A stretch of 50,452 bases of DNA, taken from contig CACHWO010000003.1 of the NCBI GenBank assembly GCA_902583685.1, positions 1 to 50,452 of the forward strand. Reading direction: 5' to 3'. Numbering within the stretch: position 1 is the stretch's first letter; the number at the start of each line of letters is the position of its first letter. Under the pieces are notes generated by a model. The model was not told the DNA's origin. It searched no databases and saw only the letters and a program-made list of their open reading frames with translations. Of this stretch, positions 14,664 through 18,390 are shown one piece after another. This stretch comes from an uncultured Pelagibacteraceae bacterium (lineage in GTDB: Bacteria; Pseudomonadota; Alphaproteobacteria; Pelagibacterales; Pelagibacteraceae). Made by a program: the position numbers and the translations under genes.

Positions 14664-15998
14664 ATGTCAAAAAAAAAGTATTCAGTAATATCTCAAAATA
14701 GAATTGCTGGTTTCAATAAAATTTTAAAAGTTGATAGTGATAAATCTATTTCTATTAGAACTCTTTTAATTAGTTCTATAAGTCAAGGCATTTCAAAAAT
14801 TGATAACATTCTTGAATCTGAGGATATATTTTCTACTATAGAATGTTTGAGGAAACTTGGTGTAAAAATAAAAAAAATTAAAAAAAGTTATTTTGTTTAC
14901 GGAAAAGGATTTGGCTCATTTGCAATTAAAAATAATGCAGTGTTAAACTGCGGTAACTCAGGAACTCTCACAAGACTTCTCATTGGTATACTTTCGACCA
15001 CACCTGGTTTAAAAGTAAATATAACTGGTGACAAATCTCTAAAAAAAAGAGATATGACAAAACTCATAGATCTGATGGGTGAATTTGGTGCGAGTTTTAG
15101 TAAAAATAAATCGTATTTACCTTTTCAAATTACATCTTCATCTATGCCGCTAGGAATAAAATATAAATCAGGTATTTCTGCTCAATTGAAAAGTGCAGTA
15201 ATTCTTGCAGGTCTAAATTCATTTGGGACTACAAATATTTTAGAAAATGAAAGTAACAAAAGTAGAAATCATACTGAAAATTTGCTCCTTAATAATTCAG
15301 GAGTTTTAAGTATAAAAAAAAATGAGATAAAAGTTTTTGGAAAAAAAGCTTTAGATCCCTTTAATATCTCTGTTCCAGGAGACCCATCTAGTGCTGCTTT
15401 TTTTTGTGCATTAGCATTATTTACAGAAAATTCGAATTTAAAAATTAAAAATATATGTCTAAATTCAAGGAGATTAGGTTTTTATAAATTGCTAAAAAGA
15501 CACGGCGCCAAAATAGTTTTTACAAATATAAAAAGAAGATTTAATGAGACTATTGGCGATATTCATGTCAAAAGTAGCAAAATAAGTCCAATCAAAGCAG
15601 GTTCTTATTATTATCCCTCAACAGCTGATGAATATGTAATTTTATCTGTTTGTGCAGCCATGATACCTGGAATATCTGTGTTTAAAGGTATATCGGATTT
15701 ATCAAACAAAGAAAGTTCAAGGGCTTTGGAGATGAAAAAAATATTAAAGCAAATCGGAATTAAGTGTATCTTAACTAAAAGTGAAATGAGAATTTTTGGG
15801 TCAAATGAAATTAAAGTAAAAAAAAAATATATTGTTTTAAAAAATTTACTTGATCATAGAATATGTATGGCAACTGTTTGCTTATCTTTGTTAACTGGTG
15901 TTAAAAGTTTTGTAAAAAATTTTGAAACTGTTGAAACATCATCACCATCGTTTTTAAAGATAATTAAATTAATTGGTGGCAAATATGAAGTTAGATAA
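14664..15998 (+). CDS. aroA: 3-phosphoshikimate 1-carboxyvinyltransferase (EPSP synthase)
   Basis: DSDKSISIRTLL, CGNSGTLTRLLIGIL, SAQLKSAVILAGL, VPGDPSSAAFF, DHRICMA. Confidence 0.92.
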   Translation: MSKKKYSVISQNRIAGFNKILKVDSDKSISIRTLLISSISQGISKIDNILESEDIFSTIECLRKLGVKIKKIKKSYFVYGKGFGSFAIKNNAVLNCGNSGTLTRLLIGILSTTPGLKVNITGDKSLKKRDMTKLIDLMGEFGASFSKNKSYLPFQITSSSMPLGIKYKSGISAQLKSAVILAGLNSFGTTNILENESNKSRNHTENLLLNNSGVLSIKKNEIKVFGKKALDPFNISVPGDPSSAAFFCALALFTENSNLKIKNICLNSRRLGFYKLLKRHGAKIVFTNIKRRFNETIGDIHVKSSKISPIKAGSYYYPSTADEYVILSVCAAMIPGISVFKGISDLSNKESSRALEMKKILKQIGIKCILTKSEMRIFGSNEIKVKKKYIVLKNLLDHRICMATVCLSLLTGVKSFVKNFETVETSSPSFLKIIKLIGGKYEVR

Positions 15999-16644
15999 AA
16001 CCAAATATATTCGAATAGCTATTGACTCAACAGCTGGCTCTGGTTCAACGTCTATAGCAAAGCTTCTAGCTAAGCATTATAAATTAAGATATCTTGACAC
16101 TGGAAAAGTTTATAGATGGTGTGCTTATCAAATATTAAAAAAAAAACCTCAAAATCAAACAAAATTTTTGAGACAAAAGATAAAAAAATTAAAATTAGAT
16201 GAGTTAAAAAGTAAAAAACTTATTGATGATGATGTTGCCCAGTTAACTTCTAGAATATCAAAACAATTGAGTTTGAGAAAACTGGTTTTAGGTTTTCAAA
16301 AAAATATCGCTTATAAAATTCCACCTGGTTTTAAAGGTAGCGTTCTTAATGGAAGGGATATTACGTATAATATAATGCCCGATGCAACTTTTAAATTCTA
16401 TATCACAGCAAATCTACGAGAGAGAAGTAAAAGAAGGTTCAAGGAACTTAGAAGGCTAGGGAAGAAAGTAAATCTTAAAAATGTTGTAATAAGTTTAAAA
16501 AATAGGGATCAATCAGATAAAAAAAGGTCTGGAAAACAAGGAAGGCTTAAAAAAACTCAAGATTCACAGTTGATAAATACAACGCACCTCTCTATAAAAG
16601 GGGGCTTTCTAAAAGTAAAAAAAATTATTGATAGAGAGCTTTAA
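15985..16644 (+). CDS. cmk: Cytidylate kinase, variant P-loop
   Basis: YLDTGKVYRWCAY, NGRDITYNIMPDATFKFYITANLRERSKRRF; aroA-cmk-rpsA order; P-loop reads STAGSGSTS. Confidence 0.85.
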   Translation: MKLDKTKYIRIAIDSTAGSGSTSIAKLLAKHYKLRYLDTGKVYRWCAYQILKKKPQNQTKFLRQKIKKLKLDELKSKKLIDDDVAQLTSRISKQLSLRKLVLGFQKNIAYKIPPGFKGSVLNGRDITYNIMPDATFKFYITANLRERSKRRFKELRRLGKKVNLKNVVISLKNRDQSDKKRSGKQGRLKKTQDSQLINTTHLSIKGGFLKVKKIIDREL

Positions 16645-16659
16645 GAATAAATAAATTAT

Positions 16660-18390
16660 ATGGCTTTAGAAACTAACTTAGAAAACAAAAAAAACCTGAG
16701 TGAATTTGAAAATCTTTTAAATGAAGATTTTAAAAAAAGGGATCTCAAAGAGGGAAAAATTACTAAAGCAGTTGTTAGCGAAATTGGTAGAAAGTATGTT
16801 TTTGTTGACTTAAAAGCTAAATCTGAAGGAATGATACCAATTGAGGAATTTAAAATAACAAAAGAATTAGACTCTTTAAAAGTAGGATCAAATATTGATG
16901 TTTATTTAGAAAGAATTGAAGGATTTAATGGAGAGCTCGTTGTAAGTAGAGATAAAGCCAGAAGATTTAGCTCTTGGGAACGTATGAGTAAAGCTTTCGA
17001 TAAACAAGAAGAGGTTGAAGGAATTATAACTAATCGTTGCAAAGGAGGTTTCGTCGTAAATATAAATTCCTGTCTTTGTTTCTTACCAGGTTCGCAAGTA
17101 GACATAAAACCGTTAAAAAATTCAGAGATCGATGAACTAATGAATACTCCACTAAAATTTCTTTGCGTAAAAATGGATAATGTTAGAGGAAATATAGTTG
17201 TTAGTAGAAAAAGTATTTTAGAAAAAACAAAAAATAAAGATTTAAAAAATATTTTAAGTAAAATCAAAGAAGGAGATATTGTTCAAGGTAAAGTAAAATC
17301 TATTTTAGACTGGGGAGCTTTTATAGATTTAGCGGGTGCTGACTCATTACTACATTGTAGTGATATGAGTTATTCACGAGTAAAGAAACCTTCTGATTTG
17401 TTGTCAATTGGTGAAAAAATTAAAGTAAAAATAATTAAGATTGATAACTCAACTAATAGAATTTCTGTTGGCATAAAACAGATGCATCCTGATCCTTTTG
17501 AAAACTTAGACAAAAATTTTAAAGTTGGAGATATTGTAAAAGGCCATGTTACAAAATGTGTAGAGTATGGTGCTTTTGTTCGTCTAGGAGAAGGACTAGA
17601 AGGTCTTGTGCATTCTTCCGAAATTGATTGGACAAAAAAAAATATCACGCCTAGCAAGGTTCTTTCTCCTTCACAGGAAATAAAAGTTAAAATATTGGAA
17701 ATTGAAAAAGATAAAAGAAGAATTTCTTTAAGTTATAAAGCTACACTAGAAAATCCTTGGGATAAGCTTTTAAAAGAGACCCCAGTTGGATCAATTATAA
17801 GTGCTTATGTCAAAAATATTACCGACTTTGGAATATTTTTAAATATTGAAAACTCTTCATTAAATGGATTATTACATTACAAAGATATCTCTTGGGAAGA
17901 AAATGAGGAGGATTTAAAAAAATTTAAAAAAAATCAAAAAGTAAAAACAAAGATTGTAGAGATAGATGGAGAAAAGGAGAAAATAAGACTTTCGATAAGA
18001 CATTTAGAAAAAGATCCATTTGATTATTTTAAAAATAAAAAAGATAGAGACGTAATAACTGCAAAAGTACACTCAGTATTAAAAAATGGAATTAAAGTTT
18101 CACCTGGCAATGAGGACAAACTACAAATTTTGATTAAAAAAAATAATTTAGCAAAAGACCCAGAAAATTGTAGACCAGAAATATTTAATCCAGGAAATAA
18201 AGTTGACTGCATGATAATTGATCTAAACATAGAGGCAAGACGCGTTAATTTATCAATCAAAGAATTAGAGATACAAAATGAAAAGAGAGATATTAAAAAA
18301 TATGGAAAAGATGGATCAAAAAGTGGTGCTGTATTAGGTGATATTTTAGGAAAAGTATTTAAGACAAAGAAAACAACAAAAAAGAAATAA
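16660..18390 (+). CDS. rpsA: 30S ribosomal protein S1
   Basis: Multiple S1 repeats (GKVKSILDWGAFIDL, GHVTKCVEYGAFVRLGEGLEGLVHSSEI). Confidence 0.96.
   Translation: MALETNLENKKNLSEFENLLNEDFKKRDLKEGKITKAVVSEIGRKYVFVDLKAKSEGMIPIEEFKITKELDSLKVGSNIDVYLERIEGFNGELVVSRDKARRFSSWERMSKAFDKQEEVEGIITNRCKGGFVVNINSCLCFLPGSQVDIKPLKNSEIDELMNTPLKFLCVKMDNVRGNIVVSRKSILEKTKNKDLKNILSKIKEGDIVQGKVKSILDWGAFIDLAGADSLLHCSDMSYSRVKKPSDLLSIGEKIKVKIIKIDNSTNRISVGIKQMHPDPFENLDKNFKVGDIVKGHVTKCVEYGAFVRLGEGLEGLVHSSEIDWTKKNITPSKVLSPSQEIKVKILEIEKDKRRISLSYKATLENPWDKLLKETPVGSIISAYVKNITDFGIFLNIENSSLNGLLHYKDISWEENEEDLKKFKKNQKVKTKIVEIDGEKEKIRLSIRHLEKDPFDYFKNKKDRDVITAKVHSVLKNGIKVSPGNEDKLQILIKKNNLAKDPENCRPEIFNPGNKVDCMIIDLNIEARRVNLSIKELEIQNEKRDIKKYGKDGSKSGAVLGDILGKVFKTKKTTKKK

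Follow-up and report, generated by a model that had tools for sequence, protein, structure and literature searches.

The cytidylate kinase (Cmk) encoded in the window, by which we mean the whole 50,452-nucleotide stretch of DNA analysed here, has no Walker A lysine, and it shares this absence with an entire clade of SAR11 bacteria. We consider it a working CMP kinase in which the phosphate-binding charge most likely comes from a different residue, Lys41, a combined reading to which we give an even chance. The gene (cmk, 15985–16644, forward strand) runs from an ATG at 15985 to a stop codon ending at 16644 and encodes 219 residues. Residues 11-205 matched PF02224 (Cytidylate_kin) with 130.5 bits (cut-off 26), and the match to the (d)CMP kinase equivalog TIGR00017 (121.2 bits) lay slightly under its cut-off of 135.55. 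PF13189 (Cytidylate_kin2) was matched just above its cut-off of 28, with 29.9 bits, far below the score for PF02224. The AlphaFold2 model (pLDDT 91.2, pTM 0.87) found its top PDB matches in the Cmk structures 2h92, 2cmk and 7l4a, with TM values of 0.78-0.82. Upstream lies aroA (14664–15998, forward strand), the 3' end of which overlaps the start of cmk by 14 bp, and downstream rpsA (16660–18390, forward strand). The order in the window is lptB, aroA, cmk, rpsA, then ihfB and pyrF, the names being given by eye from the translations and from operon order. Tblastn searches with the window genes recovered the order lptB-aroA-cmk-rpsA-ihfB around lysine-less and canonical Cmks alike across SAR11. 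Because the same genes surround both types, the window cmk occupies the orthologous slot. The family match, the fold matches and the operon slot identify the ORF as a Cmk ortholog, and the original prediction named it correctly. It resembles other bacterial (d)CMP kinases (PF02224/TIGR00017) in fold, operon position, CMP-binding residues and lid residues, but differs from them in lacking both the lysine and the first glycine of Walker A and in its score below the TIGR00017 cut-off. An Rfam scan of the window gave no match.

The degenerate P-loop comprises residues 15-23 (STAGSGSTS; 16027–16053, forward strand), within a segment (residues 11-26) that reads IAIDSTAGSGSTSIAK. We aligned 102 distinct intact lysine-less and 81 distinct canonical SAR11 Cmks. 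At position 21, the column of the Walker A lysine, the window has serine (codon tca, 16045-16047), as had been read from the sequence at the outset, whereas all 81 canonical proteins have lysine. Position 15 (K-6 relative to the lysine), where Walker A has its first glycine, is likewise serine in the window. This position is serine in 101 of the 102 lysine-less proteins, against glycine in 81/81 canonical ones. A survey of P-loop structures found that the Walker lysine contacts oxygens of the beta- and gamma-phosphates and also the carbonyls of residues K-5 and K-6 (PMC9599734). The K-6 glycine is replaced together with the lysine, as if the loop had been re-packed. A sequencing error can be rejected: the GSGSTS loop occurs in two independent single-cell genomes (L079/L044 and L080), and the 99 other distinct sequences have alanine. 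The rest of the active site is kept, but the NGRDI motif, listed at the outset among the retained fold markers, is itself changed. It reads NGRDI (16348–16365) in the window's subclade, against DGRDI in 97% of lysine-less Cmks. The lid of this subclade (16528–16545) also departs from that of other lysine-less Cmks, by a two-residue insertion (KRSGKQGRL).

At position 21, lysine is absent from all 102 distinct intact sequences of a single SAR11 clade; 99 of them have alanine there (SPAAAGAGT-type loops) and three have serine, namely the window and two close relatives. Aligning Cmks across SAR11 clades, a check proposed with the original prediction, bore out the missing lysine but showed the loss to be a property of the clade and not of this gene alone. 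In the window's genus eight genomes carry the lysine-less type, the window and G026 with GSGSTS and six with SPxAAGAGT; others are canonical (GKTT or GKST). A scan of genome_contigs returned 479 relatives, and the best 80 of these 479 all lacked the lysine and all belonged to SAR11, as judged by record title, being single-cell, MAG or strain genomes that include records named Candidatus Pelagibacter ubique. In a sample of 198 genomes of the family, 177 had a match, and 81 of the 177 scored at least 264 bits on a lysine-less profile, these classes being assigned by profile score, with sequences read for the 183 aligned. On the same profile canonical Cmks reached 193 bits or less and the g5 group, which has both lysines (see below), 234-238 bits; two partial copies, at a contig edge or frameshifted, scored in between. 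A search for a viral origin or phage copies recovered no relative in viral_contigs, only remote phage Cmks of about 30% identity.

When the trait columns were left out of the tree, a single branch (SH-aLRT 97) divided the lysine-less sequences from the rest, with one change of state. The lysine-less type has a single origin, in one loss within SAR11; an ancestor would have gone from GPxxxGK to SPAAAGAG. The three GSGSTS sequences are nested within the lysine-less clade (support 99) and adjoin SPxAAGAGT sequences. The window's loop would therefore be explained most simply as a second remodelling, confined to its small subclade, of a loop that was already lysine-less. Lysine-less and canonical types occur in the same genera and in the same operon slot, which implies either differential loss or replacement in place.

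The lysine-less gene is clearly maintained, and several observations bear on whether its product is active. In 20 independent pairs dN/dS was 0.044-0.166 (median 0.085), which shows purifying selection. With such a ratio, and with the loop shared by independent genomes, we reject the idea that the window cmk is a pseudogene. The window also holds the equivalents of the E. coli Cmk residues R41, R110, R131, D132, R181, D185 and R188, and all of them are kept in 102/102 distinct intact lysine-less proteins. On the forward strand these are Arg44 (16114–16116; E. coli Arg41, a phosphate contact, kept also in 81/81 canonical proteins), Arg98 (16276–16278; Arg110, a cytosine contact), Arg124-Asp125 (16354–16359; Arg131-Asp132) and the lid residues Arg174, Asp178 and Arg181 (16504–16527; Arg181, Asp185 and Arg188), with the roles of all but Arg174 taken from PMC3603445. 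The Yersinia Cmk variants R110A, R131A and R188A are inactive (PMC3603445).

A further consideration is whether another enzyme could phosphorylate CMP in these cells. In each of four genomes that are 99-100% complete (G075, G081, G116 and G112) we found a single PF02224 match and a single adenylate kinase; G075 and G081 are single-contig genomes (1,308,759 bp and 1,456,888 bp) with the lysine-less type. In a fifth genome, G103, PF02224 also gave a second hit, weak or minor, but the A2 profile recovered a single lysine-less Cmk. No separate PF13189 gene was found in any of these five. The single strong PF00406 match per genome looks like ordinary adenylate kinase, with the canonical loop GPPGAGKGT in the 5 of 10 genomes where a motif search recovered it, and we rejected it as a UMP/CMP-type kinase; the search for another CMP kinase of that kind, also suggested at the outset, thus ended with adenylate kinase only in the genomes checked. 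A second canonical cmk, which was to have counted against the original prediction, was absent from the window's genome (65% complete) and from the near-complete or single-contig relatives checked, with G308 as the exception. In this genome a canonical operon Cmk (L246, G308:C7:1-4500) and a divergent lysine-less Cmk (L247, G308:C7:37500-42500) lie 38 kb apart, the latter adjoining an ATP-sulfurylase-like and a radical-SAM-like ORF (functions by eye). In G170 the lysine-less cmk of the operon is a pseudogene with many stops, and an intact second lysine-less copy is found about 37 kb away (L254/L255, G170:C2), as expected if the intact copy does the job. Its neighbours are nucleotidyltransferase-like and HAD-phosphatase-like ORFs, which suggests a surface-sugar cluster.

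It could be argued that the protein is a pseudoenzyme that binds CMP or another nucleotide in some other role, CMP being phosphorylated by, for example, PyrH or adenylate kinase. Both the lysine and the first glycine of Walker A are gone, and a K14A variant of another P-loop enzyme, Kti12, is almost inactive (PMC7363723). Moreover, cmk has been reported as dispensable in some bacteria (PMC3603445), so that the gene need not be essential, contrary to what had been supposed. However, a protein kept for binding alone would be likely to lose its lid residues, whereas the lid arginines and Asp178 are present in 102/102 proteins. No further member of a CMP kinase family was found in the genomes searched, and both Cmk types sit in the same SAR11 operon slot. 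We therefore regard a pseudoenzyme as improbable. Taken together, selection, the kept residues, the confident model, the lack of a second Cmk and the case of G170 make a dead protein unlikely, and that the lysine-less Cmk is functional, probably as a working CMP kinase, is well supported by these comparative data. With no second cmk found in the near-complete and single-contig relatives, G308 excepted, and the active site kept, the natural reading is much as first put forward: the phosphates are bound in some other way, or the kinetics have changed.

Lys41 of the LDTGKVYR motif (16105–16107, forward strand) is the residue that we infer to be the best candidate substitute for the Walker lysine. 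It is lysine in 102/102 distinct intact lysine-less Cmks versus 20/81 canonical SAR11 Cmks. We take its position to match that of Asp33 in adenylate kinase, close to the Mg2+ site. The position is alanine in the Cmks of known structure from S. pneumoniae, S. aureus and E. coli; in the last of these it aligns with Ala38, at the start of helix alpha2 and beside the CMP-phosphate contact R41 (PMC3603445). A fixed lysine elsewhere co-occurs with the Walker loss, with the main limit that, the Walker lysine having been lost once, the association amounts in effect to a single event followed by stasis. The Fisher p-value calculated for this comparison takes no account of phylogeny and does not count as independent evidence. 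In the mechanism that we propose, the P-loop would go on holding the ATP phosphates by its backbone amides and by Mg2+, and CMP binding and lid closure would fall to the arginines and aspartates, which have not changed. Lys41, in the DTGK motif at the start of helix alpha2 and beside the site of phosphoryl transfer, would bring positive charge to the beta and gamma phosphates.

Other residues might take this role. Lys212 and Thr39 are likewise invariant in the lysine-less clade and variable in canonical SAR11 Cmks; Lys212, in the C-terminal helix, is a weaker candidate than Lys41. Arg147 is invariant in lysine-less Cmks, but it is arginine in E. coli Cmk too. The lysine of the IAK motif (position 26), raised earlier as a possible occupant of the site, drops out: it is leucine in L079 and L080, two of the three members of the window's GSGSTS subclade. 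A comparison is offered by 3fdi and 3hdt, which we take to be assigned to PF13189 and which the PDB records name 'putative kinase' or 'uncharacterized protein'. They share a Cmk-like fold and lysine-less loops (GSGGH and GSGGR) with the window protein, but differ from it in their identity of only 14-20% in the fold match and in the absence of the DTGK motif; these solved PF13189 proteins have no obvious equivalent of Lys41.

A quite plausible alternative, though one that we hold to be less likely, is that an active CMP kinase simply tolerates the loss, backbone amides, Mg2+ and lid arginines being sufficient, at the price of looser ATP binding or a lower turnover and with no replacement residue. 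Kti12 of the Eurotiomycetes (K14L) offers a natural parallel to SAR11 Cmk: this P-loop enzyme has lost its Walker A lysine throughout a clade, and it stays active with weaker ATP binding (PMC7363723). It differs in family and in having leucine instead of alanine or serine, and no replacing lysine has been proposed for it. In addition, mycobacterial CoaE K14A keeps about 81% of the wild-type kcat, a loss of only 19% (PMC3019153). This explanation accounts equally well for the purifying selection and for the retained active site. Nonetheless, tolerance alone leaves unaccounted for why Lys41, variable in canonical SAR11 Cmks, is fixed in 102/102 lysine-less ones. Another thought is that the phosphoryl donor has changed, to another NTP or to a non-nucleotide, so that the Walker lysine is unneeded. 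In its favour is only that the loop for the donor phosphates is remodelled (G15S, K21A/S) with the CMP site untouched, and fold and lid match those of ATP-using Cmks; we consider this very improbable.

Returning to Lys41, its history may have begun before the loss. The canonical group g5 (GPAASGKNT...LDSGKLYR) has both the Walker lysine and Lys41, hence Lys41 could predate the loss of the former, and the both-lysine state is a plausible intermediate. Canonical outgroups often have lysine or arginine at position 41, and the residue there probably predates the loss. We tentatively suggest, as something short of an even bet, that the Walker lysine has moved to helix alpha2 through such a both-lysine intermediate, a WNK-like relocation in a central-metabolic P-loop kinase. 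In WNK protein kinases the catalytic lysine is gone from its usual place and is supplied from another position; these are protein kinases of another fold, and the comparison is an analogy only. The same holds for the gp28 terminase of phage Mu, in which another lysine is thought to compensate for a deviant Walker A (discussed in PMC7363723): lysine is supplied from elsewhere, but in gp28 it sits close by, in the loop region. If the relocation is true, the active site of an NMP kinase has been re-engineered within SAR11, with old and new types in the same slot.

For P-loop NTPases, the lysine of Walker A is taken to be the catalytic residue that defines them, and its change to alanine is the standard 'dead' mutant. 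Here nature has fixed that change in the only detectable CMP kinase of very abundant ocean bacteria, a caution that Walker A sequence alone is poor ground for calling proteins inactive. The enzyme itself is known, and the novelty lies in its lysine-less form, of which we found no description in the literature searched (subscription journals were mostly outside its coverage). Close relatives carry Cmks of the lysine-less, both-lysine and canonical kinds in the same operon and offer a ready-made comparison set, which makes the question of a lysine-free P-loop kinase directly testable.

Some further irregularities concern individual copies of the gene. The lysine-less cmk of G272 (L256, G272:C1:60500-65000) is split by a frameshift and has arginine at position 41, the only charged substitution seen there in the clade. 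A canonical-type cmk in a 58% complete relative (L050, G001:C2) is broken over three frames, through either pseudogene formation or assembly errors. Finally, in some genera of the SAR11 family (g7 and g15, L187-L190 and L031, and also G062 and G072 of g12) the Cmk match lies inside an open frame of 655-669 codons, with the canonical lysine wherever it was read; the other part of the L031 frame resembles AroA, and the frame probably encodes an AroA-Cmk fusion.
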